From assembly GCA_028817435.1 (NCBI GenBank), contig JAPPPQ010000017.1:1-64000 (forward strand): DNA of 64,000 nucleotides, in the 5' to 3' direction. Below the pieces are notes generated by a model. That model ran no database searches. It was given only the letters and a program-made list of their open reading frames with translations, and was not told the origin of the DNA. This document shows positions 35,065 through 52,999 of the stretch, piece by piece. Each line of letters begins with the position of its first letter. Position 1 is the stretch's first letter. This stretch comes from Deltaproteobacteria bacterium. GTDB lineage: Bacteria; Myxococcota_A; UBA9160; UBA6930. The translations under genes and the position numbers were made by a program.

Positions 35065-36258
35065 CTACCCGCCCGCCGAGCCTGCCGCGCAGCTTGGCGG
35101 CATTTCTCCCGCCACCTCGCGCATATCGCCCAGCGCGGCGCGAAGCAGCCCGCCCAGGCTTCCAAGCTGCGAAAAATCGCGGCGCTCAAAGCGCTCAACA
35201 GGCCCGCTGCGCCGCCCTTCGGCATCGAAGTCGGCGCGCACTCCCCAAATTCCGTGTTGCGGCGGGCCGCGCAATCCGCCGTAGCGCAAATCTTCCAGCG
35301 CAACGCGCACGCCGCCCCCCGGCAGCGCCGTGCGGGTGTGGCTTACCTCGCCCAGCGCAAACCAGTGAAACAGCGCGCCCTGCCACGAAGCGCGCAGCTT
35401 TTGCAGCGCCGGGCTTTCGGGCGGCTCCCGGAACCAGCGCCCCGCGGGACACCCCGGCCGCAGCGGCGTATGCCAGCCCACATACACGCGCCCCTCTTGC
35501 CGGGCCACCGCGCGCCGCAACAGCGGCTGCAGCAGCGAGGGATACACCCGCACCCCGCCCCCCGCACCCAGCGCCGCGCCCCCCGCGCCCCCTGCGCCCC
35601 CTGCGCCCGCCTCGCCCGCCGCACTCAGCGCCTCGCCCCCGCCCAGCGCCGCGCGCACATCTGCCCGCGCATACGCATTCAGCCCCACGCCGCCCAGCAG
35701 ATAGGCCGTGCTCAGCACCAGCCCCGCCGCCGCCGCCCGCGCACCCAGCCGCGCCCGCCGCGCACCCAGCCCCAGTCCGGCGGCCCGCCCCCCGGCCCGC
35801 CGCGCTCTCAGCGCCAGCGGCAGCAGCATGGGCAGCGCCAGCAGCAGCGTGTAGATGGGATCCACAATCCCAATACTGTGCAGCGCAAAGCGGTGCCGCC
35901 AAAACGGCGCAAAAAGCTGCGTGCCGTAGGGCGTAAACACATCCAGCAGCGGATGAGTCACCAGCGCCAGCACGCAGAGCCGCTGCCAGCTGCGCAGCAA
36001 TTCCGGCGCATGGGGGGTGCGCCAGCGCCACAGCGCCCAGCCCAGTGGCGGCCCCACCGCCCAGCCGAACCACAGCGCGTGGCTGCTGCCCCGGTGATAC
36101 AGCATTTCGCCATAGCCCCCCCGCAGCGGCGCAAGCAGAATATCCAGATCGGGCGGCACTCCCACCAGGGCGCCCCACAGCAGCGCCCGCCGCCCCAGCC
36201 GCCCCGCGCAAACCCGCCCCACGGCGGCCCCCAGCAAACCCTGCGTAATCGGCTCCAC
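35065..36258 (-). CDS. Membrane-bound metal-dependent hydrolase (YdjM/DUF457-like)
   Basis: Polytopic protein of 397 residues. It opens MEPITQGLLGAAVG and carries PPDLDILLAPL, HRGSSHALW and LALVTHPLLDVFTPYGTQLFAPF, the Asp/His motifs of the YdjM-type family, with four or more TM helices. The C-terminal half is a soluble region. An Ala/Gly run (GEAGAGGAGGAGGAALGAGGG) separates the two halves. The biological substrate of this family is not established. It is on its own on the minus strand; the 110 bases upstream hold no other gene. Confidence 0.78.
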   Translation of the reverse strand: MEPITQGLLGAAVGRVCAGRLGRRALLWGALVGVPPDLDILLAPLRGGYGEMLYHRGSSHALWFGWAVGPPLGWALWRWRTPHAPELLRSWQRLCVLALVTHPLLDVFTPYGTQLFAPFWRHRFALHSIGIVDPIYTLLLALPMLLPLALRARRAGGRAAGLGLGARRARLGARAAAAGLVLSTAYLLGGVGLNAYARADVRAALGGGEALSAAGEAGAGGAGGAGGAALGAGGGVRVYPSLLQPLLRRAVARQEGRVYVGWHTPLRPGCPAGRWFREPPESPALQKLRASWQGALFHWFALGEVSHTRTALPGGGVRVALEDLRYGGLRGPPQHGIWGVRADFDAEGRRSGPVERFERRDFSQLGSLGGLLRAALGDMREVAGEMPPSCAAGSAGG

Positions 36259-36369
36259 CTCACCCCCCGCGCCCCGCGCCCTGCCGTGCGCCCCCCAGTA
36301 TCGCCCACCCCACCCCCGCCGCCCCCCGCACAGCGCCGCATTTTGCTACGAACCGTGCGAGGAGGGCCC

Positions 36370-36444
36370 ATGCCCGAGCCCGTCATCGCGCTAATTGCGT
36401 TCTTCATTGCCCTGCTGAACCAAATCGCAGAGTGGAAGAAGTAG
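36370..36444 (+). CDS. Putative 24-residue single-pass membrane peptide
   Basis: A short ORF starting MPEPVIALIAFFIALLNQI and ending QIAEWKK. It has a strong GAGGAGGG ribosome site 4-5 bases before the ATG and an intrinsic terminator starting 6 bases after its TAG. One hydrophobic helix with a Lys/Trp C-terminus fits a small inner-membrane peptide. It is too short for homology. The combination of ribosome site, TM helix and terminator is the evidence; it is not in the ORF track under this start. Confidence 0.5.
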   Translation: MPEPVIALIAFFIALLNQIAEWKK

Positions 36445-36450
36445 AGCCGC

Positions 36451-36482
36451 CGCCTCCCCCAGGGGGCGCGCCGCATTTTTTT
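36451..36482 (+). terminator. Rho-independent terminator after the 24-aa ORF
   Basis: CGCCTCC-CCCA-GGGGGCG forms a 7-bp stem with one G-U pair, followed by GCGCCGCA and seven T. The hairpin-to-T spacing is slightly long. It separates the small ORF from the adhesin locus. Confidence 0.6.
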
Positions 36483-36518
36483 GCGTTTTTGTGTGGCGCG
36501 GGGGCGGCGCGGCCTGTG

Positions 36519-36524
36519 TATAAT
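36519..36524 (+). promoter_or_regulatory. Perfect TATAAT -10 box upstream of the adhesin locus
   Basis: TATAAT within CTGTGTATAATGGCG is the only perfect -10 that I noticed in the window. A -35 at ideal spacing is not obvious (TTGTGT is 24 bases upstream). Transcription would begin near 36531, giving a leader of about 170-220 bases that contains a GCCCGC/GCGGGC hairpin (36579-36597). Confidence 0.45.
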
Positions 36525-36542
36525 GGCGGGCGAGGGGGCGCA

Positions 36543-36707
36543 GTGAGCGAGGCGCAGAAACCGGCGGGGAGGCGCCAGGCCCGCAAGCAAAGCGGGCAAA
36601 GGGCGGACCCAAACCTCGGGGGTAAGAACATGGATGTGACGCCGCGGGCGCGCAGGTTTTGGAGCCAGGCCAGCTACGCTAGCCGGGTGGGGCAGGGGCA
36701 GGCATGA
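36543..36707 (+). CDS. Possible 54-residue leader ORF overlapping the adhesin start
   Basis: A GTG ORF with GAGGGGG about 8 bases upstream encodes a basic, hydrophilic peptide (VSEAQKPAGRRQARKQSGQR...VGQGQA). Its TGA overlaps the upstream adhesin ATG at 36704 as ATGA, the usual sign of translational coupling in this genome. No homology or domain is recognised. It could equally be the untranslated leader of the adhesin mRNA. Confidence 0.3.
   Translation: MSEAQKPAGRRQARKQSGQRADPNLGGKNMDVTPRARRFWSQASYASRVGQGQA
36675..36680 (+). promoter_or_regulatory. Second candidate -10 box for the adhesin gene
   Basis: TACGCT in GCTACGCTAGCC matches the TAnnCT boxes seen before other genes here. Transcription from it would start near 36688, 16 bases before ATG 36704 and about 60 before ATG 36749, leaving the poly-G tract within the transcript. 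Confidence 0.3.
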
Positions 36708-39700
36708 ACACTTTGGCATTTTTCCCCCGGGGGGGGGGGGGGTTGGATATGAAGGCATTGACAGTTGTGGCGGGGCTGGTGGCGGGGCTGTGGCTGGCGC
36801 CGGGGGCTTGGGGGCAGGAGTTCTCGCTGGGGGCGCGGCAGATCGGCCAGCATCAGGCGATTATCGGCAACAGTGCCGGCGAAGGCAGCACGGTGAGCCT
36901 CACGGTGAATTTGTCGGCGGCGGTGAGCAACGAAACCCGCGTGCAATACACCATCACTCATGTGACTCTCGTCGAAGTCACCTTCCCTGTCGACGGCACC
37001 TCCGACGCCGATTTCGACACCCCCGTGACCGGCGTCATTACCTTCCCGGCGAATTCCACCACGCAGACTTTCCAGGTGCGCCACGCCGTGGACGCCGATG
37101 GGGAGGCGAACGAATACTATCTCTTCACCCTCAGCGCGCCTTCCGGCGGCACCGGCAGCCCCACCGCGCCCACCGTCGCCACCTGCCCGGCCGACACGGC
37201 CGACGACAGGAACGATTACATAGACAGGAATTTCCGCAATCTCAGTTTTCAAGCCAGCGGTTGCCAACTCTCCAGTATATCTGGAAACAGCGCCGTCAAC
37301 CGCACCACCACCGTCACCATCAGCGGCGCAACCAGCGTGGCAGAAGGCGAAACCCAGACCTACACCCTCACCGCAAACCCCGCGCCGCTTGCGCCCAGCA
37401 TCAATGTGGCGTTGCAGCTGCGCTTCAACCAAACCGCATCGGGTAGCGATTATGAAATCCGCGACAGCGATGGCAACGCCATTGCCGAGCAGACTTCCGG
37501 CGGCATCCGGTATTACACCATTAGTCTCCCGCGCGCTTCCGCCACGGTGAGCTTCCAGGTCGCCTTTCTCCGGGATACCGATGCAGACCCGGACGAGACG
37601 CTCATCTTCCAGCAGGGCGCGCGCGGCTCCAGCGAAATCGCCGCGCTGTCGCCCGCCAACTTCACCATCACCATTGCAGATGGCTCGCCCTCCGATAATC
37701 CGCAGGTGAGCATCAGCGGCCCCGCAAGCGCCGTCAGCGAGGGCGGCAACGCCGAATTCACCATCAGCATAGATCGCCCCATCAGCGGCAATGTCACGGT
37801 GGCCTATGCGGTCAGCGGGGCGGGGGTGCGCCCGGCCCAGGCCGAAGACCTCGGCACCGGCGGCAGCACCTTCGCCAGTGGCGATATTACCCTCAGCGCC
37901 GGCGACAGCCCCTCCCATACCCTTACCATTGCCATTTACGATGACGCGCTGGCCGAGCCCGCCCCCGAAACCTTCCGCGTAACCATCAGCAACCCGCGCG
38001 GGCAAAACGCCGAAATCATCGCGCCGCAGTATGGCGATTCCATGATAGATGTGGATATTTCGCCCAGCGAGGTGCCCTCCGTCACCAGGGAATTCAGCCT
38101 CAGCGCCGCGTCGGCCATGGTTACGGAGGGCGAAGCCGCCACCTACACGGTCACCATATCCGGCCCCGCGCCCACGCAGACCCTCACCCTTACCTGGGAT
38201 GTCACCGGCGATGGCGGCCCCTTCACCTCCAACCCCGCCAGCCTCAGTTTCGCCGCGGCAGATGGCGCAAACGCCAGCAAAACTTTCACCGTCACCGGCA
38301 GCGAAGACACCCTGAGCGACCCGGAGCGCTTCTTCTCGGTGGCGCTGAACGATCCCACCGGGGGCGATGCCGCCCATGCAGATTTCGCCGGGGCCAACAG
38401 CGTGCAGCGCACGCGGCTGGACGATGACGATCAGCTGCGCGCGCATTTCACCGCGGCCACCACCAGCGGCAGCGAAGGGGGCAATATGCCCTTTGCGGTG
38501 CGCCTCTCTGCCGTGGGCACCGCCACCGGCTCTTCCGATGATATTACCCTTACCTTCGCCGCCACCGGCGGCAGCGCCTCGCTGGCGGACGATGTCATGG
38601 TGCCCGATCCCGCCAGCATCACCATCTCCGCCGCCAACAGTCTTTCGGCCCTCACCGGCACCTTCAATGTCCCCATTGACGACGATAATCTCAACGAGGG
38701 CGGGGAGCTCTTCACCCTGCGCATTACCGGTGTCAGCGGCGCAAACGCCGTGCTGCAGGCTTCTTCCAGCCAGTATCCCACCACCGCCACCGCCACCATC
38801 GGGGCCAGCGATCCCGCCACCGTCAGCGGCTTCAGCGGGCCGGCCGACACCGATGTGTTCGAAGGCGATGCCGTGAGCTTCACCATTGAGCTTTCGGGCG
38901 GGCGCCTCACCGCCAATGCCACCCTGTCCTACACCATAGACGGCCAGGTGGATGCGGCGGATTACGCGGATTCCGGCAACGGCAGCTTCACCATTACCGC
39001 CGCAAACGCGGCTGCGGCCCGCCGCGCCACCGATCCGCGGCCCCTCCTGTTGACGCTGCGGCTGGTGGACGACGGCAACAGGAACGAGCCGCCGGAGACC
39101 CTGCGCGTCACCCTCAACAGCGTCGCGGGGCGGGGCGGCAGCATCAGCATTGGCGGAACCGTCGCGCCCGTGCAGGTCACCATCTCCGAAGATGTGCCGA
39201 GGCCCACCCTGCGCGTGTTCGATCCCGATCCCAACGCCCTTCCCGAGACCGGCTACCACTCCTTCCACATTCCGGTCACGCTGGAAAACCCGCGGCCGGG
39301 GGTGACCACCACGGTGGATTGGGCATCCCCGCCAAATGACCCTGGGGACGCTGGAATGGATTTCCTGGAACACTCCGGCACGGTCACCTTCGCCCCCGGC
39401 GAACGGCGCAAAATCATCACCGTGAGGGTGAATGCCATTGATGGCGGCGGCCAATTCCGCGGCGAGGGCGGGACGGAGAATTTCACCCTGACCATCAGCA
39501 ATCCGCAGCCCGCCAGCGGCCGGGACCGCGCCATCATTGACCCCAGCCAGAACAGCGCCAGTTTCTCCCTCTTCGGGAATGCGGACGGCGTTTCCTATGA
39601 CCATGACTTCTCCATGGCTTTTTCCTCGACGCAGATCAGCGAGGGCGGCTCTGCCCGGGTGGATTTGACCATTACCAGGTCCGCCCCCAGCCTTCCCAGC

Positions 39701-42700
39701 CCCTCAATAGATGCCCTGGTCAAGCTGTGCATCGTCCATACTCCCTCGCGGCCGCAGGTTACGAGTCATTACAATCTCGGCACCCTGGTCAGCGCCGCCG
39801 ACATTCGCGTGACCGGCGCGCATGTCCACGATGTGCGCAGCGGAACCTGCAGCCGATCAGCGGCGAGCGTCACATCGCCGGGAAGTTTTCCCAGCACCGA
39901 GGTGAGGGTGCTGGTGCCGCGGAACTCTGCGCCGACCACCCGCTCCTTCACCGTGCACGCGGTTGCCGATTCCGCCGACGAGGGGGCGGAGAGCATCTGG
40001 ATCATCCACCCGGTAGTTGGCGATGGAATCAATCTGAATACCTTCACTCACCAGGTCCTGGTTAGCGGGCGGCCGGACAGTGGGAGATCGATAGGTTCGA
40101 GGGGCTGGAATCAGTTGCTTGCCCGGCAAGATTCCCCCTTGCTGGTCGTCGCCACCATCGGCGCCAATGGCGCCGCCACCCGCAACATTTCGCTCAGCGG
40201 CCCCGCCACCGCCACAGAGGCCAGCGGCGCGCTGCAATACAGCGTCTCGCTCAGCGGCAGCGGCGGCGGCTTCGGCACGGCGCGCAGCGTCAACTGGCAG
40301 GCGGTGGGCAGCGGCAACTATCCGGCGGAAGCGGGGGATTTCAGCAGCACGGCGCTCTCGGGCAGCTTCACTTTCCCCGCCGCCACCACCGCGGCGCAAA
40401 GCTTCTCGCTGCCGGCCCTGGTGAACGATCTGGTGAGCGAACCGGCGGAGCAGATCACCGTGAGCATCTCTCTTGCGGGTTCCGACCTCAACGCCGAAGC
40501 CGCGCAAATCATGACCAACTCCGTCACCACCACCGTGGCCGATAACGACGCCATTGTCCTTACCCTGGCCAATGCCCCGCGGGTGCAAGAGGGCGGCATT
40601 GCGCAATTCAATGTGGGCGTGAGCGGCGGCACCCGCCCCGGCGTGCTGCGGGTGCGCTGGCAGGTGCAGGATGGAAGCACCAATTCGGTGGCGGAGGCGG
40701 ATTTCCGCTCCGGGCGGCACACCCTCTACCCCAGCGGCTTCATTGATCTTGCGGCCGATGCGAGCAGCGGCGTGATTTCCGTCCCCACCTTCAACGACAA
40801 CGACGAAGAGCAGGTGGAAAACTTCCGCCTGGCCATTACCGCCGGGCCGCCCGAAGATTCCGGCGGCGCACCGGCCTGGCCGCCGGGAAGCGTCACCCTG
40901 CCCAGCCCGGCCAGCGGCAGCATTGCTTCCAGCGATTTGACGGTGACTGTCACCCTGGCCCCCGCCACCGATGTAACCGAGGGCGCGGCGGGCGGCGCGG
41001 TGTTTGAGCTGCGCACCGACAACCTGCTGGATTCCGATCTGGTGGTTACCTACACCCTCTCCGGCACCGCAGACCGGGGCGCGGAATACACCCGCAGCGG
41101 CCTTGCGCCCAGCGATTCTGCCAGCCAAACCTACAGCGTCACCCGTGCCGCCGGAGATTCGGCCGCCACCCGCATTGTCTTTGCGCTGCCGCAAGATACC
41201 CTGAACGAGCCCGGCGAAACCATCATTTTGACCCTGACCAACGCCGATATTCCCGGCGCGCAGCAGAGTGCCAGGCTGGGGGCCGCTGCCGACAGGACGC
41301 GCACCGTGACCATTCTGGACGATGATCCCATTTCGGTGCGCATTACCGGCAACGCCGCCGATGTGGCAGAGAGCCTTTCGGCCCGCTTCACCGTGGAAGT
41401 AACCGGGGGCGGCGCTTACACCGGCGCGGTCACGGTGCCGTGGGCGGTGGAAGCCACCGCGGCCAGCGACGATACCGACGCCGTGGCCGCAGACTTCGAC
41501 CAGGACGGCAACAGCGTGGCCGATACCGCCTACCCCAGCGGCACCCTCTCGGTGCCCGCCCGTGGCAGCGCCGTGCTCAGCATTCCCATTTTCGCCGATG
41601 CGGACGCCACCGAGCCGGGGGAGAAGTTCGCCGTGCGCCTTTACGGCAGCGGCCGCCCCAGCGGCACCGCGGCCAGCGGGGGCGGCGGCGGCGTAATTTC
41701 GGCCGACAACCCCACGCCGCTGCCCACGGCCACCATTCTCTCCGCCACCGATGCGGTGCGCGTGGCGGTGAACCTCACCGGCCCCGCCGAGATTGCCGAG
41801 GGCGCGGCGGGCGCCTACCAGGTGACCCTCCGCGGCATCACCACCCCCGTGGCGGATATTGTGGTGAGCGTAACCGTGGCGGCCGACAGCGATGCCGACA
41901 GCGTAGACGCCAGCGGCGCGGATTTTTCGGGCAGCGCCTTTCCCACCATCAGCAACCTGACCTTCACCTCCAGCAACTGGCAAACCGCGCAGAGCTTCAC
42001 GGTGACCAGCGTGCAAGACACCAGCTCTGAAGCCGCAGAGGTGTTTCGGGTCTCCATCGCCGCCACGGGCAACGGCGCAAACGGGCTGAGCTTGGGCACC
42101 ACCAGTCTGAGCACGCGCATTGCCGATGACGATCCCCTCACCATCAGCATTGGCGACGGCAGCGCCGAAGAGGGCGAACCCGGCGATCTGCCCATTGCCA
42201 TTAGCGGCGGCACCCCCGCCGCGCCGCTGCAGGTGTTCTTCGCCGTGGTGGCGGGGGGCACGGCGGAAGCGGCGGAATATGTGCTGCCCCAGAGCCCCGC
42301 GCAGGTGGTGGCGGCCGCTGCCAGCAGCGGCGCGCTGCGCATTGCCACGGTGGAAGACACTGCAAACGAGGGCAGCGAGACCCTGCTGCTGCGCCTGACC
42401 GGCGTCCGCAGCCCCGGTGGCGGCGTGGTGACCCTGGGCGGCGAGGTGGCGACCGCGCCGGAGCGCAACGCCACCCTGACCATCACCGACGACGACCCCA
42501 TTTTGGCGGGCCTGAGCGCGGTGGCAGCCAATCTGGCGGAAGATGCCGGCACCGCGGACTTCCGCATTGAATTGAGCGGCGGCACCCGCAGCGCGCCGCT
42601 CACCCTGGATTGGGCGGCCAGCGGCGATGCGGTTTTTGGCGAGGATTGGAGCGGCGCTGCCAGCAGCGGCAGCCTGAGCATTGCCCCGGAGGCCAGCAGC

Positions 42701-45700
42701 GCCACTTTGGCCCTGACCCTTACCGATGACAGCGTGGAAGAGAGCGACGAGAACCTGATCATCACCCTTTCCAATCCGGTGGGTGCGGCGGGGGTGGTTT
42801 CTTTCTCTCCCGCCACGGCGCGGGTGCGCATTCTGGCCAGCGATATTGTGCTGGGCCCCAGCGTCCGCATTGAAGCGCCCTCTTGCCCCATCGGCGGCTG
42901 CGCGGCGGGCCAGACGGTCCGCTTCCCGGTTACGCTGCGCAACCCGCCGCCGGTGGATGTAACGGTGAACTGGCGCGTGCACCTGGACGGCAACCCCTCC
43001 ACTCCGGATGTGGACATCCACAGCCTCGCCCCAGGCGACCTATACCGATCGGACTTCACCTTCAACCGAGTCGGAATCCCCAGAGACCCGAATGCGCCGC
43101 CCTATCCGGATGAGCCCTCCAGGGCCGATGGCTACTACTACGGCAGCATTGTGTTCCGCGCCGCCCAGCGGGAGCAGCGGAAGTTCGTCGGCATTGATCT
43201 GCGATATGACGACAGCCGCCGCGACGCCCGTGAGGAATTCTATCAGGTGCGCATTACCGCCACCCCGGACAGCGGCGCAAATGCCGTCCGGGTGACCACG
43301 GACCGCGCCACTTCCAGCATTGCCCGATCCCCGGCTACCCTTCTGTTTGAGCAATGGAGTCTCTTGATTGCCTTCGACCGCACCTCGGTGAGCGAGGGCG
43401 GACAGTTGGTGGCGACGGTCTATGCCCAGCGCTCATCCGTCACCCCCTCCGAGTTCCAGAATCCCAGCGCCCCGACCGTTGTGCAGTTCTGCATCGCCCG
43501 CAATTCTCCCTCCCATACCTCCTGGGGCATCCTTCGGGATGGCAAGGCCGCGGGCGGGGCGGGCGATTTCCGCGTGTTGCCGGGTCCAGGGGTCCTCCGG
43601 ATTCAGGAGCATGTCCCGCACCCCGAAATCAGAGTTGCCAGAACGGCCTTGCGCTGCACCCTCGTGGATGTGCAGCTCCCCGCGTTGGCGGGCGTAGCCA
43701 ACGGCGTGCCGGTTACCATTGAAATTATCGCCGACGGCCGGCAGGAGCCGGAAGAGCTCCTGTGGATCGCGCCGTTTGGGAAGGCGGCGGATCATCCGAC
43801 AGCCAGCGCCGGCCCTAGCTATACGGCTGGCGTCAGCGAGCTCCTCTCCCCCGGTCTCTTTTCGGAGGCCATCATCGCTGCGCACAAGCAGCAGAGCCTG
43901 GTCTCCATTGCCGCCAGCCCGGCCAACACCCGCACCCTGAGTCTCACCGGCTCTGCCAGCGGCAGCGAGGGCGGCGCGGCGCTTTCTTACCAGGTGACGC
44001 CCGATATGGCCTTCACGAGCGCTGCCACCGCCACCTGGACCGTGGTGGGCCGCGGCGCAGACCCGGCTTCGGACGCGGACTTCACCGCCGTGAGCGGCGC
44101 CATTACCTTCCCCGCCAGCAGCACCGCCGCGCAGAGCTTTTCTGTCTCGCCCAATGACGATATGCTGAACGAACCCGGCGAGTTGTTCACCGTGCGCGTG
44201 GATATGGACGACCCCACCGCAGATAGCGGCACTTCGCCGGGCACTGTGGACGGCACGCTCAGCGACAACGACGCCGTGCTGCTGCGCATTCGGGGGGTGC
44301 GCCGCGCGCCGGAGGGCGGCGCTGCGGTGTTTCCCATTGAGCTGAGCGGTGGAGAGCGCGGCGGCGCACTGCTGGTGAACTGGCAGGTAAGCGGCAGCGG
44401 CGCGCCCGCAGCCACGGCGGCAGATTTTGCGGGCGGCGTGTTTCCCGCGGGCATTTTGCGGCTGCCCGCCGGGGTTGCCAGCGTGCCGCTGAACATTCCC
44501 ATCGCCGCCGATTCGGTGGCCGACGATCTGGAGGAATTCACCGTCACCCTCACCAGCCCCGACACGCCCGGCGGCGATGATTCGGAAGCCTGGTCCACCG
44601 GCACCATTACGCTGCAGACCGCCAGCGCCACGGCGGCCATTGGCCCGTATCTCAGCATTGTCCGCGAATTCGAGGTGGCGGTGGACACTGCGACCCTTGC
44701 CGAAGGCGGCACGGCGACCTTCACCGTGACTTTGCGCGGCGATGCGCCGGAGAGCGGCGCGCCCGCCACCGTGGACTGGGCGCTGACGGGCACGGCCGGC
44801 GCGGCGGATCTGACCTCTCCCGCCACGCGCAGCGGCACTCTGAGCTTCACCGCGCTGGGCACGGACACGGTGGTTGCGGTGACCGCCGCGGACACGCTGA
44901 ACGAAGCGTCGGAGACGCTGATTTTCACCTTGCGCAATCCCGCCGACGGGGCGAATTCTGCCGGGCTGGTTCCCGGCCTGGAAAGCGCCACGGCCACCAT
45001 TACCGACGACGCTGCGGACGCCATTACTTTGTCGGTGGCGCTGGCCTCCGGCCAGACCGACCGCGATGCCGACCGGGCGGGGCACCAGGCGGATGAAGGC
45101 GACAGCGTTTCGTTCACCGTGACTTTGGCCGGGGGCGATCTATCGGGGGCGGCGGAGATACCCTTCAGCGTAAGCGGCGTGGCGGCTGGAGATTTTGACA
45201 TCAGCCAGCCCACCGGGGTGGGGGCGGCGGAGACCGGCGCCACGCTGCGCGTGGGCAGCGGCAACAGCGGCACCATTACGCTGGCCATCAGCGCGGACAA
45301 TTTGAACGAGGCGCGGGAAGAGTTGACTCTGTCGCTGGGCGCAAGTCCCACGGCCCCCGGCGCAATTAGCGTGAGTTCGGCGCAGGGCGCGGGTTCGGCG
45401 GGGGCGGAGATTCGCGCCAGCAATCCGGTGGCGCTGCAGATCAGCACGGCGCAAAGCTCGCTGCTGGAGGGGACGGAGGCCGTGTTTTCCGTGACGCTTT
45501 CGGGCGCAAGCGCGGGTTCGGCGGCGGCGGTGACGGTGCCCTACACGGTGAGCGGCGATGTGTCGGCGATGGATTTGAGTCTGACTTCGCTGACGGGGAA
45601 CAGCTTGACGATTCCGGCCAACACCGGGGTGGGCGAGCTTCGCATCGGCATTGTGCAGGACGGCACTGCGGAAGTGGCGGAGGATTTGGTGGTGACTTTG

Positions 45701-48700
45701 GGCGCATCGCCCACCGTCGGCACAGGCGGCGGCGCGGTGTCGCGCAGCAGCGAAACCGCAGAGCAGAGCGCGACGCTTCCCATTCCGGCAAATGCGGCGA
45801 CGGTGCGCGATTTTGCGGTGTCTGTGGACTTTGCCACCCGCAGCGAGGGGCAGACGGCCGTATTCAGCGTTGCCCTGACCGGCACCGCGCCGGACAGCGG
45901 CTCTCCCGCCACGGTGAATTGGGCATTGAGCGGCGTGGAGGCCGCGGATTACAGCGCGCCGGCTTCCAGCAGCGGCACGCTGAGCTTCACCGCCCTTGGC
46001 ACGCAAATGGTCACCGTGGTGATCACCGCGGACAATTTGAACGAGGCCGCGGAGACCATGGTGTTGACTTTGAGCGGTTCGAGCGGCGGCGGCAGCGGCG
46101 GCACGGGGATAAGCACCGCGCAGGCCAGCACGGAGATTGCGGCCAGCAATGCGGCCAGCTACCGCATTGTTGCGGTTTCTCCCACTCAGACCACCCGCAG
46201 CGAAACCACCGAGGTGTTGCGGGCGCGGGTGGAGCTGAGCGCGCCTTCGGAGGGTGCGGTTTCCATTCCCTTCACCATTGGCGGCACTGCGACGCGGGGT
46301 TCTTCGGCGGATTACACCACCGTGCTGCTTTCCAATGCCGGGCTGTTCAGCGCGGATTTTGCGGCGGGGGAATCTACTTTTGATGTGGTGGTGAATTTGC
46401 GGGAAGACAACCTGAACGAGCCGGACGAGACCATCGTGCTTACGCCGCTGGCCGAAGATCACGCGAGTTTCAGCAAGGGCGCTGCGAGCGGCGCAATTAC
46501 CCGGGCCGCCACCCATGCGTTGACCTGGACCGTGGACGATGACGACGATTTGGTGCTGAGCATTCGCGCCGGCACTTCTCCGGTGAACGAGGGCGGCACT
46601 GCGGAATTTGCGGTGGTGGCCACCGGCGCAGCGCTGCCCTCGGGCCTGACCGCGGTGCTTTCTTTCACGCTGAGCGGCACGGGCATTACGGCGGAAGATT
46701 TGAGCGATTATTCGGCGCTTTCGGGCACTTTGGACATTACGCAGGCGGGGTTGGCCGCCACGCCCGCGGGGCAGGTGGCGCTGGATATTGCCATTGCCCA
46801 GGATACTGCGCCGGAGAGCGCAGAGCGCCTGCGCGTGACCTTGACTTCGGCGCGCGTAATGAACGGCGGGGCGGCCAGCGCATCCGGCAGCGCCGAGATT
46901 GAAATTGCCGAGAGCGACGCCTTGACTTTGGCCATTGCGCGCACCGACAGCGATGCCTTCACCGAAGGCGGCGCGGGCGCGCTTGGCACCGCGGTGTTTA
47001 CGGTGACGGCGACCGGAGGCACGCCCACGGAGGCCGTGGTGGTGGGCTTCGAGGTCGGCGGGACGGGGGTTACCAGCGGGGATTACGCGCTGGTTTCGAC
47101 GGCGAATCCGCTGCGCTTCACGGGCACGAGCGCCACCATTACGCTGATGGCGCGTGCGGATACGCTGAACGAGGCGGCGGAGACCGTGACGGTGACGCTG
47201 GTGAATCCCGGCGGCGGAGGAGGCGGCCTGACGCCTTCTTTGGGCACGGCGGCGGCGAATGCGGAGATCCCGCAGAACGAGCCTGCGCAGGTGAGCATTG
47301 CGCGTTCCAGTGCGGCGATGGTGATGGAGGGGAGTCCGGCGACTTTCCGGGTTTCGATCAATCCTCCCAGCGCGGCGGCGGTGACTTTGAGCTGGACGGC
47401 CAGCGTGGCGGCGCAGACCAACACGGGGACCGGAGACCGCGCGCCCAATGCGGACGGCGCTGGTCACGAGTTCAGCAGCGCCGGTGGGGTCATGCGCACC
47501 AGCGGCGGCGTGGCGGCGAGCGGCATGGTGGAAATTCCCGCGGGCAGCCGCAGCGCGGATTTCAATTTGACGCCCGCGCAAGATGGCCGGGAAGAAGGCG
47601 CAGAGACGATTCGCGTGGTGCTGGGCTCCACCCCGCAGGTGGGTTCGGGAGGCGGCGCGGTGACTTCGGGCGGCACGGCGGAAGTAACGGTGCCGGAGAA
47701 CGCGGCCTCGGTGCGGGATTTTGCGGTTTCGCGGGTGGGCGGGGCCTCTGCCAACGAGGGCGCGGCGGTGGTGTTCCGCGTGGCGCTGACCGGCGAGGCC
47801 CACACCACCACCGCCACGGTGGATTGGGCGGTGAGCGGAGATGTGACCTTCGGGGATTGGTCCAGCACTACGGCGAGGCAGTTGAGTTATCCCGTCGGCA
47901 CCACCAGCCAGGAGATTCGCATTTCGCTGAGCGCGGACAATTTGAATGAGGCTGCGGAGACTTTGACCGTGACATTGAGCATGGCCGCGGGCGGTGGCGG
48001 GGGCGGCACCGGCATTGAGACGGAAACCGCCTCGGTGGAGATTGCGGCGAGCGATCCCATTACCTACGCGATTGGCGCGGATGTGAGCCGGGCGGAAGGC
48101 GACAGCGGCAGCGTGGCGGTGAATTTTGCGGTGACTCTGAGCGGCGCGAGCGCGGGGAGCGCGGGGGGCGCGGTGCGGGTGCCGTTTTCGGCTGCAGCGG
48201 AGAGCACCGCCACCGGTGGAGTGGATTACACCCTTTCCACCAGTCCGCTGAGCTTTCCTGCGGCCAACGGCACCTTGCAGATTACGGTGATGATTACCGG
48301 GGATCTGCTGAGCGAGGCTGCGGAGACGCTGGTTCTTGCGCTGGGCGCGGCCGAAACAGGCATGGGAGCCGGGGCGGTTTCGCCGGGCCGCGCCCGCGCG
48401 ACGCTGACCATTACGGACGACGATGAGTTGAGCATTCGCATCGCGCGGCGCAGCGGCGAGAGCGGCGACATTGACGAGAGCGGGGGTGTGGCGCGCTTCA
48501 CGGTGACCGTGACGGGCGGCACGCCGACGGCGGATATCCGCGCGCCCTTTGCCGTGGGAGGCGCGGTTTCGGCGGGGGATTACGACATCACCATGCCTTC
48601 GGGCATTGCGGCGGATGCAGAGGGCGGCACGCTGGTTCTGGCCGCGCCCGCGCTGAGCGGGGAGATTGTGGTATCCGCCAGCGAGGATGATTTTTTGGAG

Positions 48701-51700
48701 GCTCGGGAGGCGTTTTCGCTGCAGCTGGGGGCGGTTTCGGGCGGCGGCGGGGGGCTGGCGATTGAGCAGGGGCAGGGCAGCGCGGGCGCAGCGATTACGG
48801 ACAACGAATCGGTATCGGTGGCGCTTTCGCGGGTGGGCAGCGGCAACATTACAGAGGGCGGCGCGGGGGCGCGGCTGCGGCTGACCTTGAGCGGCGGGCG
48901 GCTCAGCGCCGCGGCGCGCATACCCTACACGCTGAGCGGCGTGGAGGCGGCGGACATTTCCGGCGGCGCAGCGGCCGGCCTCAGCGGCCTTTCGGGGGCG
49001 GTGACCATTGCGGCCAGCGACAGCACCGGCCGCACCACCACGGCGGAGTTCGTGCTGAGCGCGGTGGCGGACAACTTGAACGAGGCCGGCGAAACGCTGC
49101 AGGTGGTGCTGGGCGCGCCCTCCACTCAGGGCCAGATAGCCGCGGCGGCCGATCCCGGCGACCGCGCCTCGGTTGCGATCTCGGCTTCGGATCCGCTGAC
49201 GGTTTCGCTTGCTGCCCCCGCCACCGATCCGGTGCGCGAAACGGGGCAGGCGGTGTTCGGGGTGTCTTTGGCCGGCGCATCGCAGGGTTCAGAGGGCGGG
49301 CTGATTTTGTCTTTCGATGTGCAGGTTTCGAATCAGCAGGGTCCGGCCAACACGGCGGAGAATCCCGATGTGGCGGTGATTGGTCCGGACGGCCGGGACG
49401 GCGCGAACACCGGGGCTTCGGGCCGGGTATCGGCGATGATTTCGATTCCCGCAGGGGCCACCACCGCGGAGATTCGCCTGCGCGCGCGCTTTGACAATCT
49501 CGACGAGGGCGCCACGCCGGAAACGCTGCAGGTGAGCTTGACCGGGGTGGCGGCGGATGCGGACAACCCCGGCGCGGGGGCGGCGAGTGTTTCGGGCACG
49601 GCGGGCAGTGCATCGGTGGGGCTCGAGAATGTGAACGCCGCGCGCACTTTGGTGGTCACCGCGCCGCAGCGCGTGATGGAAGGGCAGAGCGTCACCTTCA
49701 GCGTGGGGCTGGAAGGCGCGCCGCCGGAGCCGGACATGGCCTTCGATGTGAGCTGGACGCTGGTGCCCGCGGGCGCCACGCCGCCCACTGCATCTGCGGG
49801 CGGGCTGGCGCGGAATCACGGCGTGGCGCATCCGGACGATCCCGACTTCCGCCATGCGCTGAGCGGCACGGTGAACTTCCCGGCGGGCATGCTCGCGCCG
49901 CAGACGGTGACGGTGCAAACTCTGCAAGATCCGCTGAACGAGGGGGATGAGGCGCTGAGTTTGCGCATTACGCCGCCTTCCACAGACGCCGGGGGCCGCC
50001 CGGCGGGCTTCCCGGGCACTGCGCCGGCCACGCAGGTGAGCGTGCAAGAGGCGCAATCGCTGATTCCCGCCAACGATCCCATCGTGCTGAGCCTGGTGCG
50101 CTCTGCGGACGATCCCGACACTCTTTCCAATCAGGACGGCTTCGGCTTCGGCGTGGACTTCGGCTGCGCCGACGGCACTTCGGTGGCGGCGGGCGACTGC
50201 GAGGCGGTGGTGCCGACCACGGCGGTGACCATTCCCTACACCTACATGGTGGGCAGTCAGCGCTTCCCGGGCGAACTGATGGTTGCGGCGGGGGATACGG
50301 CCGCGCAGGTGAACGCGGCGGCGGCGTCCCGCGACAGCACGGCGATTGCGCCCCCGCCTGCGGCGGTTGCGGCGATACAGGCGGTGACGGGGACGCAGGA
50401 TATTTCGCTGGCATTGGGCGCGCCGTCGGCGGCCACGCCCAGCGGCGCGCCTTCGGCGGGGCAGCCCCAGCCGCAGGCGGGTCTTCGCAGCGGCCAGACT
50501 GCGGCGGAAATGCGCACTGCGCCGGTGCGGGTGGAAAAGCGGCTGGGCGAATTCAGCGTGGCGCTGGATGTGAAGCGCGCCGAAGCGCCGGAAGGCACCA
50601 CTTTGGAACTGACCGCCACCCTGCGCGGCACCGGCACGCTGACGGGGAACCTGGAAATTCCCTGGGCAACTACTTTGGCCGCGCCGGGTTATGTGCCGGG
50701 GGGCGCGGTGGCGCAGCCGGAAGATTTGACGGGGCCGCGCATGGGGCGGCTGAGCTTTGCCTCCGGCGCGGGCGGCGGCGCGACCCAGCGCATTGCCATT
50801 GAAATTGCCACCGATGATTTGGAGGAAATTGGCGGCGAATATTTCCTGGTGACGCTCGGCACCCCCAGCGGCCCGGATGTTTCGCGGCTGGCGCTGGATA
50901 CCACCTCCACCGGCGTTTTGATCCCCGCGCTGCGGGCCACACTGAGTGTGTCTCATGCCACGGCGGCAGAGGGAGAAGATGCGGTGTTTGCGCTGTCGCT
51001 GGATGACTTCCGCGGCGGCGACGCCACCACCCGGCCCGTGGAGGTGCGCTATCGGCTGACGGACGGCAGCGCCACCCGGGGCGCGGCGGCGGGCGAGGCA
51101 GACGCCGATTATGTATCGCCGCAACCGGCGGGCATGGTGACTTTGCCGACGGGAGTAGCCAGCGGGGAGATTCGCATACCGCTGCTGCTGGACGGCGAGC
51201 TGGAGCCCCGGGAGACCTTCACCCTCACATTGACTTCGGCCACCGGCGGCGGGGGCAACATCATCTTCCCGGAAATGGCGGATGAACTGAGCGCGACGGG
51301 GACGATTACCGACGATGCGGATCAGGCGCGGCGGCGCGCCAAGCGCGTGGGGACCTTGGTGGGGGTGCTGAACCGCTCGACGGCGGGGCTGGCGACCGAT
51401 GCCATCGGCGCGCGTCTGGAGCGCGGCTTGGGGGATGGCCCGCAATCGGCGCAGCTCAGCCTGGCCAACCGCAATTTGCTGGGCCGGCGCGAAGCGAACC
51501 GCGCGGGGGCAGATTTGGGCCTGGCGCTCTACGGCGCGCCGGGCCTGGGCGGGGCAGAGGCGGGTCTGCCGGGCGCAAGCGGCCGCGGCGCGGGCGGCCG
51601 CGGTGCCGCGGGCGCGGGGGCGGGGGCCTTTGGCGGACTCGGCGCGGGGCTGGCCGGCGGCGCAAACATGGGACGGCGCACCGAACTGCCGAGCCTGGCC

Positions 51701-52999
51701 GAAACCCTGCGCGGCAGCCGCTTCAGCTTCCGCGCCTCCTGGGCCGATGTGCAGGAACTGGCCGAAGGCGTCGAAATTTGGGGCAGCGGCGGCAGCAGCA
51801 CCCTCAAAGGCGCGCCCCTGCAAGACGGCGTGCGGCTCTCTTACGAGGGCGACAACCTCGCCTTCTTCGTCGGCGCAGACCGCCCGCTGCGAAACAACCT
51901 GCTGGCCGGCGTGGCCCTGGGCTGGGCCTCGGGCGAACTGGACTTCACCGACCGCACCGAAAACGGCCGCTTCGAGCTGCGCGGCAGTCTGCAGAACAAC
52001 AGCCTGGGCCTTTACCCCTATGTGGGCTGGTGGCTCGCGCCGAATGTGAACACCTGGCTGGTGCTGGGCGTTGGCAGCGGCAGCGTGGATATGGAAGAGC
52101 GCGAAGCCGCCGTGGCGGGCGGCGCCGCGGTGCAGCGCACCCTGCCGGGCGATCTGGATTCGAGTATGTGGATGTTTGCCGCGGGCCTGACCGGCCGCGT
52201 GCAGCTGGCTACCCATACCGAACTGAAGCTGGTCTTCGAGTTGTCGCGGGTGCGAAGCACGGTGGCCGCGGGCCGCTTTACCGACGGCGCAGAATTGCCC
52301 CGGGTGCGCGCGCGCAGTTTGCGCGCCGCGGGCGAGGCCCAGGTGGGCCACCGCTTTGCGCTCCCCGGCGGGCTGGGCCTGCGCCCCTTTGTGAGCACGC
52401 GCTGGCGCTTGGATGCCGGCGCTGCCGTGGAGCAGGACACCGCCGGCTCTCACGGAATGCGCAGCATGGATGTGGGCGGCGGCGCAGAGGCCGACTGGCC
52501 CGCATACGGCCTTGCACTGCAGCTGCGCGGCGCAAAGCAACTGAGCGACACCGGCCACGAAGAGCAGCACCTTGCCGTGGATTTGAGCTACGACCTCGGC
52601 GGAGACGGCGTGGGCCTGGCCCTCTCCCTGAACAGCGCCCTCTCCGGCCAAACCGCCGCCACCACCAACGGCGGCCTGTTCGCCCACGAATCCGGCGCGG
52701 GCTTCGGCGGCGCAAACCTGGGCGGCGCGGGCCTGGGCAGCACAGACATCGGCAGCGCATCCACCCGCGGCCTGGGCGGCGAAATCGCCTACGGTATGCC
52801 CCTGCGCGCCTTCGGCGCAGAGGCGCTGCTGACCCCCTACGCCACCTTCGATTGGTCCGGCGCCACCCGCCGCTACGAAACCGGACTGCGCCTGCTGCGC
52901 GGCCGCCACTTCAACCTCGGCCTCGGCCTCAAGCTCGACCTCGAAGCCACCACCCCCACAAACGCCGAGCTCCTCTTCTCCGGCCAACTCAACTTCTAG
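36704..52999 (+). CDS. Giant Calx-beta-repeat autotransporter adhesin
   Basis: A protein of 5,431 residues (5,416 if started at ATG 36749). The signal peptide is MKALTVVAGLVAGLWLAPGAWGQ, optionally preceded by MNTLAFFPRGGGGLD. About 36 repeats of 100-130 residues follow. Each has the Calx-beta pattern: xEGxxAxFxVxLSG, a V-x-W or V-P-F strand, xxDY, D-x-L-N-E-xxE-T-x-x-x-T-L, and an xITDDD-like end. A helical linker (RRRAKRVGTLVGVLNRSTAG) and a Gly/Ala-rich tract lead to a C-terminal beta-barrel of about 400 residues. It ends LLFSGQLNF, the terminal Phe expected for BAM insertion. This is type Va secretion of a calcium-binding-type adhesin; no ligand is known. Repeats 8 and 17 are atypical. 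Confidence 0.9.
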   Translation: MNTLAFFPRGGGGLDMKALTVVAGLVAGLWLAPGAWGQEFSLGARQIGQHQAIIGNSAGEGSTVSLTVNLSAAVSNETRVQYTITHVTLVEVTFPVDGTSDADFDTPVTGVITFPANSTTQTFQVRHAVDADGEANEYYLFTLSAPSGGTGSPTAPTVATCPADTADDRNDYIDRNFRNLSFQASGCQLSSISGNSAVNRTTTVTISGATSVAEGETQTYTLTANPAPLAPSINVALQLRFNQTASGSDYEIRDSDGNAIAEQTSGGIRYYTISLPRASATVSFQVAFLRDTDADPDETLIFQQGARGSSEIAALSPANFTITIADGSPSDNPQVSISGPASAVSEGGNAEFTISIDRPISGNVTVAYAVSGAGVRPAQAEDLGTGGSTFASGDITLSAGDSPSHTLTIAIYDDALAEPAPETFRVTISNPRGQNAEIIAPQYGDSMIDVDISPSEVPSVTREFSLSAASAMVTEGEAATYTVTISGPAPTQTLTLTWDVTGDGGPFTSNPASLSFAAADGANASKTFTVTGSEDTLSDPERFFSVALNDPTGGDAAHADFAGANSVQRTRLDDDDQLRAHFTAATTSGSEGGNMPFAVRLSAVGTATGSSDDITLTFAATGGSASLADDVMVPDPASITISAANSLSALTGTFNVPIDDDNLNEGGELFTLRITGVSGANAVLQASSSQYPTTATATIGASDPATVSGFSGPADTDVFEGDAVSFTIELSGGRLTANATLSYTIDGQVDAADYADSGNGSFTITAANAAAARRATDPRPLLLTLRLVDDGNRNEPPETLRVTLNSVAGRGGSISIGGTVAPVQVTISEDVPRPTLRVFDPDPNALPETGYHSFHIPVTLENPRPGVTTTVDWASPPNDPGDAGMDFLEHSGTVTFAPGERRKIITVRVNAIDGGGQFRGEGGTENFTLTISNPQPASGRDRAIIDPSQNSASFSLFGNADGVSYDHDFSMAFSSTQISEGGSARVDLTITRSAPSLPSPSIDALVKLCIVHTPSRPQVTSHYNLGTLVSAADIRVTGAHVHDVRSGTCSRSAASVTSPGSFPSTEVRVLVPRNSAPTTRSFTVHAVADSADEGAESIWIIHPVVGDGINLNTFTHQVLVSGRPDSGRSIGSRGWNQLLARQDSPLLVVATIGANGAATRNISLSGPATATEASGALQYSVSLSGSGGGFGTARSVNWQAVGSGNYPAEAGDFSSTALSGSFTFPAATTAAQSFSLPALVNDLVSEPAEQITVSISLAGSDLNAEAAQIMTNSVTTTVADNDAIVLTLANAPRVQEGGIAQFNVGVSGGTRPGVLRVRWQVQDGSTNSVAEADFRSGRHTLYPSGFIDLAADASSGVISVPTFNDNDEEQVENFRLAITAGPPEDSGGAPAWPPGSVTLPSPASGSIASSDLTVTVTLAPATDVTEGAAGGAVFELRTDNLLDSDLVVTYTLSGTADRGAEYTRSGLAPSDSASQTYSVTRAAGDSAATRIVFALPQDTLNEPGETIILTLTNADIPGAQQSARLGAAADRTRTVTILDDDPISVRITGNAADVAESLSARFTVEVTGGGAYTGAVTVPWAVEATAASDDTDAVAADFDQDGNSVADTAYPSGTLSVPARGSAVLSIPIFADADATEPGEKFAVRLYGSGRPSGTAASGGGGGVISADNPTPLPTATILSATDAVRVAVNLTGPAEIAEGAAGAYQVTLRGITTPVADIVVSVTVAADSDADSVDASGADFSGSAFPTISNLTFTSSNWQTAQSFTVTSVQDTSSEAAEVFRVSIAATGNGANGLSLGTTSLSTRIADDDPLTISIGDGSAEEGEPGDLPIAISGGTPAAPLQVFFAVVAGGTAEAAEYVLPQSPAQVVAAAASSGALRIATVEDTANEGSETLLLRLTGVRSPGGGVVTLGGEVATAPERNATLTITDDDPILAGLSAVAANLAEDAGTADFRIELSGGTRSAPLTLDWAASGDAVFGEDWSGAASSGSLSIAPEASSATLALTLTDDSVEESDENLIITLSNPVGAAGVVSFSPATARVRILASDIVLGPSVRIEAPSCPIGGCAAGQTVRFPVTLRNPPPVDVTVNWRVHLDGNPSTPDVDIHSLAPGDLYRSDFTFNRVGIPRDPNAPPYPDEPSRADGYYYGSIVFRAAQREQRKFVGIDLRYDDSRRDAREEFYQVRITATPDSGANAVRVTTDRATSSIARSPATLLFEQWSLLIAFDRTSVSEGGQLVATVYAQRSSVTPSEFQNPSAPTVVQFCIARNSPSHTSWGILRDGKAAGGAGDFRVLPGPGVLRIQEHVPHPEIRVARTALRCTLVDVQLPALAGVANGVPVTIEIIADGRQEPEELLWIAPFGKAADHPTASAGPSYTAGVSELLSPGLFSEAIIAAHKQQSLVSIAASPANTRTLSLTGSASGSEGGAALSYQVTPDMAFTSAATATWTVVGRGADPASDADFTAVSGAITFPASSTAAQSFSVSPNDDMLNEPGELFTVRVDMDDPTADSGTSPGTVDGTLSDNDAVLLRIRGVRRAPEGGAAVFPIELSGGERGGALLVNWQVSGSGAPAATAADFAGGVFPAGILRLPAGVASVPLNIPIAADSVADDLEEFTVTLTSPDTPGGDDSEAWSTGTITLQTASATAAIGPYLSIVREFEVAVDTATLAEGGTATFTVTLRGDAPESGAPATVDWALTGTAGAADLTSPATRSGTLSFTALGTDTVVAVTAADTLNEASETLIFTLRNPADGANSAGLVPGLESATATITDDAADAITLSVALASGQTDRDADRAGHQADEGDSVSFTVTLAGGDLSGAAEIPFSVSGVAAGDFDISQPTGVGAAETGATLRVGSGNSGTITLAISADNLNEAREELTLSLGASPTAPGAISVSSAQGAGSAGAEIRASNPVALQISTAQSSLLEGTEAVFSVTLSGASAGSAAAVTVPYTVSGDVSAMDLSLTSLTGNSLTIPANTGVGELRIGIVQDGTAEVAEDLVVTLGASPTVGTGGGAVSRSSETAEQSATLPIPANAATVRDFAVSVDFATRSEGQTAVFSVALTGTAPDSGSPATVNWALSGVEAADYSAPASSSGTLSFTALGTQMVTVVITADNLNEAAETMVLTLSGSSGGGSGGTGISTAQASTEIAASNAASYRIVAVSPTQTTRSETTEVLRARVELSAPSEGAVSIPFTIGGTATRGSSADYTTVLLSNAGLFSADFAAGESTFDVVVNLREDNLNEPDETIVLTPLAEDHASFSKGAASGAITRAATHALTWTVDDDDDLVLSIRAGTSPVNEGGTAEFAVVATGAALPSGLTAVLSFTLSGTGITAEDLSDYSALSGTLDITQAGLAATPAGQVALDIAIAQDTAPESAERLRVTLTSARVMNGGAASASGSAEIEIAESDALTLAIARTDSDAFTEGGAGALGTAVFTVTATGGTPTEAVVVGFEVGGTGVTSGDYALVSTANPLRFTGTSATITLMARADTLNEAAETVTVTLVNPGGGGGGLTPSLGTAAANAEIPQNEPAQVSIARSSAAMVMEGSPATFRVSINPPSAAAVTLSWTASVAAQTNTGTGDRAPNADGAGHEFSSAGGVMRTSGGVAASGMVEIPAGSRSADFNLTPAQDGREEGAETIRVVLGSTPQVGSGGGAVTSGGTAEVTVPENAASVRDFAVSRVGGASANEGAAVVFRVALTGEAHTTTATVDWAVSGDVTFGDWSSTTARQLSYPVGTTSQEIRISLSADNLNEAAETLTVTLSMAAGGGGGGTGIETETASVEIAASDPITYAIGADVSRAEGDSGSVAVNFAVTLSGASAGSAGGAVRVPFSAAAESTATGGVDYTLSTSPLSFPAANGTLQITVMITGDLLSEAAETLVLALGAAETGMGAGAVSPGRARATLTITDDDELSIRIARRSGESGDIDESGGVARFTVTVTGGTPTADIRAPFAVGGAVSAGDYDITMPSGIAADAEGGTLVLAAPALSGEIVVSASEDDFLEAREAFSLQLGAVSGGGGGLAIEQGQGSAGAAITDNESVSVALSRVGSGNITEGGAGARLRLTLSGGRLSAAARIPYTLSGVEAADISGGAAAGLSGLSGAVTIAASDSTGRTTTAEFVLSAVADNLNEAGETLQVVLGAPSTQGQIAAAADPGDRASVAISASDPLTVSLAAPATDPVRETGQAVFGVSLAGASQGSEGGLILSFDVQVSNQQGPANTAENPDVAVIGPDGRDGANTGASGRVSAMISIPAGATTAEIRLRARFDNLDEGATPETLQVSLTGVAADADNPGAGAASVSGTAGSASVGLENVNAARTLVVTAPQRVMEGQSVTFSVGLEGAPPEPDMAFDVSWTLVPAGATPPTASAGGLARNHGVAHPDDPDFRHALSGTVNFPAGMLAPQTVTVQTLQDPLNEGDEALSLRITPPSTDAGGRPAGFPGTAPATQVSVQEAQSLIPANDPIVLSLVRSADDPDTLSNQDGFGFGVDFGCADGTSVAAGDCEAVVPTTAVTIPYTYMVGSQRFPGELMVAAGDTAAQVNAAAASRDSTAIAPPPAAVAAIQAVTGTQDISLALGAPSAATPSGAPSAGQPQPQAGLRSGQTAAEMRTAPVRVEKRLGEFSVALDVKRAEAPEGTTLELTATLRGTGTLTGNLEIPWATTLAAPGYVPGGAVAQPEDLTGPRMGRLSFASGAGGGATQRIAIEIATDDLEEIGGEYFLVTLGTPSGPDVSRLALDTTSTGVLIPALRATLSVSHATAAEGEDAVFALSLDDFRGGDATTRPVEVRYRLTDGSATRGAAAGEADADYVSPQPAGMVTLPTGVASGEIRIPLLLDGELEPRETFTLTLTSATGGGGNIIFPEMADELSATGTITDDADQARRRAKRVGTLVGVLNRSTAGLATDAIGARLERGLGDGPQSAQLSLANRNLLGRREANRAGADLGLALYGAPGLGGAEAGLPGASGRGAGGRGAAGAGAGAFGGLGAGLAGGANMGRRTELPSLAETLRGSRFSFRASWADVQELAEGVEIWGSGGSSTLKGAPLQDGVRLSYEGDNLAFFVGADRPLRNNLLAGVALGWASGELDFTDRTENGRFELRGSLQNNSLGLYPYVGWWLAPNVNTWLVLGVGSGSVDMEEREAAVAGGAAVQRTLPGDLDSSMWMFAAGLTGRVQLATHTELKLVFELSRVRSTVAAGRFTDGAELPRVRARSLRAAGEAQVGHRFALPGGLGLRPFVSTRWRLDAGAAVEQDTAGSHGMRSMDVGGGAEADWPAYGLALQLRGAKQLSDTGHEEQHLAVDLSYDLGGDGVGLALSLNSALSGQTAATTNGGLFAHESGAGFGGANLGGAGLGSTDIGSASTRGLGGEIAYGMPLRAFGAEALLTPYATFDWSGATRRYETGLRLLRGRHFNLGLGLKLDLEATTPTNAELLFSGQLNF
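36717..36734 (+). repeat. 18-bp element CATTTyTCCCCCGGGGGG, copy 2
   Basis: CATTTTTCCCCCGGGGGG; the G run continues to 14. One mismatch to the minus-strand copy at 27586-27603. It lies between the two possible start codons of the giant autotransporter. Confidence 0.45.
36729..36742 (+). repeat. 14-G homopolymer at the adhesin 5' end
   Basis: Fourteen consecutive G preceded by five C. It lies 22 bases after the ATG at 36704 and 6 bases before the in-frame ATG at 36749. At this length slipped-strand mispairing is expected. If translation starts at 36704, gain or loss of one G breaks the frame. If it starts at 36749, the tract acts as a Shine-Dalgarno-like G run of variable length. Confidence 0.85.
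36850..51330 (+). repeat. Tandem Calx-beta repeat region (~36 degenerate units)
   Basis: Unit boundaries read by eye end in variants of TITDDD, IAASD or IADND, and the next unit begins with a short strand plus EGG/EGD. Units diverge in sequence, apart from a longer-range duplication of units 7-10 as units 16-19 (39197-40936 and 42845-44650). The count is approximate because several units lack a clean boundary. Confidence 0.75.
51766..52996 (+). other. Autotransporter beta-barrel domain of the giant adhesin
   Basis: From GVEIWGSGGSSTLKG to GQLNF the protein shows alternating amphipathic strands with aromatic girdles (LGLYPYVGWWLAPNVNTWLVLGVGSG, LRPFVSTRWRLDAG, LTPYATFDWSGATRRYETGLRL). This is the pattern of an autotransporter translocator domain, longer than the usual 260-300 residues. 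A Gly/Ala-rich segment (51540-51675) precedes it. Confidence 0.82.

Follow-up and report, generated by a model that had tools for sequence, protein, structure and literature searches.

Does the run of 14 G at the 5' end of a very large surface-protein gene act as a switch of that gene? The homopolymer occupies positions 36729 to 36742 of the forward strand in the 64,000-nt stretch of DNA that we analyzed (the window), exactly the place and length given in the preliminary description. On its 5' side it adjoins a C5 arm (36724 to 36728, forward strand), and TTTTTCCCCC stands directly 5' of the run. Markov run-length models of order 1 to 5 lead one to expect only 0.001–0.004 runs of 14 or more in the window, where no other run of G or of C is longer than 8. 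This longer-than-chance homopolymer lies inside a reading frame, near its 5' end and before the signal peptide.

The reading frame concerned (36704 to 52999, forward strand) encodes 5431 amino acids from the ATG at 36704, with Calx-beta repeats. Its C-terminal stretch, encoded by positions 51737 to 52996 of the forward strand, matches the autotransporter β-domain above the cut-off (PF03797, E 2.3e-11), which bears out the earlier designation of the product as a giant autotransporter; in paralogues the E-value for this Pfam domain goes down to 3e-14. The C-terminus of the giant can be aligned with seven paralogues from the same genome at 41–49% identity, and no homologue of its N-terminal 500 residues was recognizable at E 0.001 in other genomes of the order. 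The N-terminal translation, MNTLAFFPRGGGGLDMKALTVVAGLVAGLWLAPGAWGQ-EF..., consists of a short leader, four glycines encoded by the tract and then a signal peptide, as judged by eye. Together with the repeat passenger and the C-terminal Pfam β-domain, this signal peptide gives the layout of a classical (type Va) autotransporter, and the giant Calx-beta protein is accordingly a predicted autotransporter.

What a change in tract length does to the gene depends on the start codon. Two ATG codons flank the tract, at 36704 and 36749, and as had been claimed they are in the same frame at 14 G, 45 nt apart. The first is the proposed start and opens the leader MNTLAFFP-R (36704 to 36728, forward strand) behind a weak Shine-Dalgarno sequence, gggtggggcaggggcaggc. 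The second opens a signal-peptide-like region (36749 to 36817, forward strand; MKALTVVAGLVAGLWLAPGAWGQ) and is a possible independent start. When we computed the tract states, leader and signal peptide shared one frame at 11, 14 and 17 G. With 13 or 16 G, reading from ATG 36704 meets a TGA overlapping ATG 36749 (ATGA), and with 12 or 15 G about 246 codons are read in the wrong frame. Provided that ATG 36704 is the start, a one-base change puts the giant gene out of frame.

We favor ATG 36704 because MNTLAFFP-RGGGG matches the leader layout of other tract genes. In several of the giants and receptors with tracts an ATG is followed by roughly 9–14 codons, the tract and the signal peptide, and the leaders often end in F-S/T-P, as in MVQLAAQREIFS-PPPPP, MKLSCTSPAEFS-PAPPPP and MRVHSLVNFFT-PPPP. 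In most tract genes the start codon comes before the tract and is itself preceded by a Shine-Dalgarno site. Against ATG 36704 stand its weak Shine-Dalgarno sequence and the complete signal peptide that opens at ATG 36749. Further upstream, a possible open reading frame of 25 codons (36630 to 36707, forward strand) ends in a TGA overlapping ATG 36704 (ATGA), and it could couple translation to that start. The search of the leader for a known RNA or riboswitch yielded nothing beyond a match below threshold on the opposite strand.

If ATG 36749 were used independently, the tract would tune expression and not switch it. The tract would then lie in the 5' untranslated region and serve as a pseudo Shine-Dalgarno sequence or as a hairpin arm, its length setting the rate of initiation in the manner of a rheostat. 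The distance from the G-run to this ATG is 6 nt, and in a predicted RNA hairpin UUUUUCCCCC is paired with the run, but the stability of the hairpin does not exceed that of shuffled sequences. In another giant (C5:10332) the tract stands outside the open reading frame, upstream of it and with stops between, and therefore both designs, tract inside and tract outside the frame, may exist. Several tract genes, on the other hand, have no ATG at all between tract and signal peptide and a clear Shine-Dalgarno sequence and ATG upstream of the tract. On balance we regard tuning from ATG 36749 as rather unlikely.

The switch reading of ATG 36704 gains from the remainder of the genome (2.8 Mb, 92% complete, 67 contigs). 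The preliminary description stated that no similar tract was seen elsewhere in the window; this is correct for the window but misleading for the genome, which holds about 35–40 G/C runs of at least 12, far more than most relatives, with a modal length of 13–14. A whole-genome search gave 40 such runs, and 74 matches for runs of at least 9. Within the stretches that we fetched from this genome, run lengths dip to a minimum at 12 and climb again at 13–14, and because of this minimum and second mode we consider the long runs a separate population. The pattern CCC, one non-G base and G12 (CCCHG12) has 22 matches in this genome and none in the reversed order; 79 further genomes of the order have 0–3 matches each. 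A few tracts that border an N gap or the end of a contig (contigs C13, C39, C47 and C55) look like sequencing artefacts, and we therefore count about 30 credible loci. These tracts sit mainly at the 5' ends of genes, and their placement is not random but coincides with signal peptides.

Phase-variable genes usually encode surface proteins or act in surface modification or DNA methylation. Behind 12 of the tracts, Pfam identifies Plug and/or TonB-dependent barrel domains of outer-membrane receptors. Calx-beta giants follow the tracts in the window, on C2, C13 and C61, at C41:218873, and at C55:5095 and C55:44356; two divergent open reading frames on C5 are, by sequence, further giants, so that about eight are found besides the window gene. 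Other tracts belong to an inverse-autotransporter-like open reading frame and to a bamD-like gene, just upstream of its likely start. Three genes have products of another kind. An N6_N4 DNA methyltransferase fused to an Mrr-like domain (contig C50, tract 36383; L066:3516-4997) contains an in-frame G14 just after its DPPF motif, a low-GC Type ISP/IIG restriction-methylation gene (contig C53, tract 7983; L069:4984-6917) is split at G14 and open at 15 G, and a carbamoyltransferase gene (contig C24, tract 32767; L051:4968-6174) has a frameshift exactly at C14 and is open at 13. Other giant Calx-beta-type open reading frames (C11, C30, C45, C47, C55; L209-L211, L216, L063), open for up to about 7000 residues, have no long G/C tract where their 5' ends were read, so that not all giants carry the switch.

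For each coding locus the frame was determined with one base fewer, as assembled and with one base more. Eleven of the 12 receptors are in frame with their upstream ATG, which in most cases has a purine-rich Shine-Dalgarno sequence before it (aaaggaggc and gaggaggaaa are examples); the twelfth (C59) would be in frame with one additional G. With arbitrary tract lengths, at least 11 in-frame receptors out of 12 would occur with a binomial probability of about 5e-5, and we conclude that the assembled lengths carry a biological signal. In the non-receptor classes ON and OFF frames are mixed. The window gene and the giant at C5:9110 are in frame, C2, C55:5095 and C61 need one base fewer and C41:218873 one base more; the N6_N4 methyltransferase gene is open as assembled, one base must be added in the Type ISP gene and one removed in the carbamoyltransferase gene. 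The genes that are off frame are one base off exactly at the tract, and such a minority of frameshifts is what a switch predicts.

The many 5'-end tracts of one length class in surface genes, in ON as well as OFF frames, support the proposal that G14 is phase-variable, and we think it probable, with some room for doubt, that it is a contingency switch of the giant autotransporter. ON/OFF control of the window gene is likely on this reading of the frames. Slipped-strand mispairing at replication would add or remove a G. At 14 G, the assembled state, and equally at 11 or 17 G, a ribosome starting at ATG 36704 would read across the tract in the frame of the signal peptide and make the giant. At 13 or 16 G the ribosome would stop at the TGA overlapping ATG 36749, and at 12 or 15 G it would translate the out-of-frame codons, either of which should leave the gene OFF or much reduced. 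With some 30 loci of the same kind, mostly outer-membrane receptors and giant autotransporters but also the DNA methyltransferases and the carbamoyltransferase, clone-mates would come to differ in their surface make-up. Loss of mismatch repair as a cause was rejected, as mutS and mutL (MutS, MutL) are present; their presence counts against slippage yet does not exclude it.

The tracts have a second regularity, which bears on whether they are genuine. C4-6 arms recur at most tracts of the genome, and regardless of gene orientation the arm precedes the G-run when the G strand is read 5' to 3', usually with a T before the arm and a T after the run. In pure CnGm tracts the sum of C and G is 19 in 12 of 14 cases and 20 in the other two, which is steadier than independent arms would give (permutation p 0.0006; one C11G12 tract was left out of the test). 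No pairing covariation beyond composition was detected between the tract flanks. The arm and the near-constant total of 19–20 may partly have a technical cause. In hpuA, changes of the C-to-G boundary at constant effective length are documented (PMC3786947); they account for drift within a gene, not for the same total across unrelated genes. Tentatively, and against our own expectation, the tracts might be standardized slippage units, with a fixed C4-6 arm 5' of G13-16, bounded by T, with a C+G length of about 19–20 and a movable C/G boundary, placed in unrelated genes in both orientations. The C arm could fold on the G-run and thereby control how often slippage occurs or how long a tract can grow. 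If true, such a unit would be a defined hypermutable element and not a plain homopolymer.

Could sequencing or assembly, for example through dark-cycle poly-G, have produced the tract itself or its precise length and C/G boundary? The constancy of the CnGm sums and the junk poly-G on the four contigs named above, at contig ends and an N gap of this same assembly, point in that direction. Arbitrary runs would not be expected to leave 11 of 12 receptor genes in frame or to prefer signal peptides; moreover, the flanks are conserved between paralogous giants, and a separate assembly, described below, has tracts in the same gene classes. We judge an artefact very unlikely. As a separate observation, junk poly-G/poly-C at contig ends and at the scaffold gap (L072:5027-5174; L042:3232-3256; L061:1-31) is of the typical two-colour sequencing kind, and the assembly tends to break at poly-G/poly-C tracts.

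A switch at transcription, in which the tract alters promoter spacing, is hardly credible: several tracts of the genome are intergenic (for example C22:330366, C9:93870 and C40:4644, the last before the bamD-like gene), but the sole -10-like site here, TATAAT at 36519 to 36524 of the forward strand, lies about 200 nt upstream of the tract with no good -35, a consensus scan of 36200 to 37000 found no full σ70-like promoter, and the idea was dropped for want of a promoter at the tract.

Translational switching of the kind proposed for G14 can be compared with known systems. In Neisseria meningitidis, hmbR and hpuA undergo poly-G phase variation, HmbR being TonB-dependent (PMC3786947). As in these genes, poly-G lies here inside the reading frames of outer-membrane receptors, where the frame would decide between ON and OFF, and a further likeness is that the effective length of the hpuA tract is preserved by C-to-G changes at its 5' edge (PMC3786947). 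Unlike hmbR and hpuA, at least 12 receptors per genome are involved here, the tract is located at the signal peptide and has a C4-6 arm, and switching is a prediction from sequence. In Campylobacter the autotransporter gene capD has poly-G within its coding sequence and capC has it upstream (PMC7168839), and both positions seem to occur here as well; the passengers, however, are Calx-beta giants of thousands of residues, and the tracts measure 13–19 compared to about 9. Neisseria genomes contain on average 15–19 poly-G tracts with a modal length of 9–10 (PMC5953494). Their phasome resembles the present set as a genome-wide, repeat-controlled collection that includes surface proteins and restriction-modification genes, but here the tracts are about twice as many and longer. 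By analogy, the set looks like a translational phase-variation repertoire of the Neisseria or Campylobacter kind; poly-G control of HmbR, HpuA and capD would be the same kind of switch, and the difference from Neisseria one of degree.

We found no earlier report of a poly-G switch repertoire in this lineage, and the papers of the library searched contained nothing on phase variation by homopolymers in Calx-beta autotransporters, sponge symbionts or metagenome-assembled genomes. Our analysis suggests that poly-G switches form a large repertoire here: most would act on nutrient receptors or giant autotransporters, and two lie in DNA methyltransferase genes. If true, clonal cells would differ in many surface proteins at once, and surface genes that appear frameshifted at such tracts in metagenome assemblies would not necessarily be pseudogenes. 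The N6_N4 methyltransferase on C50 is a candidate phase-variable enzyme that could switch many genes.

How far the tracts extend beyond this genome was followed in two ways. Among 78 homologues of one tract-bearing receptor from other bacteria (47–57% identical), none has a tract at the equivalent place, the only run of at least 7 near it being one G8, 118 nt upstream. The tract habit is nevertheless not confined to one assembly, because a relative from another genus of the same family (G005, 2.2 Mb) carries a smaller set in similar gene classes. Of its tracts (L091, L094, L095, L096, L097), those of C13-C15 are found in a TonB-dependent receptor gene and an S8 protease gene, both out of frame, in an LRR/PKD autotransporter gene whose leader has a similar form (M...FT-PPPP), and in the upstream region of a gene that resembles LRR autotransporters; a G15 tract lies in frame in an FkbM methyltransferase gene.
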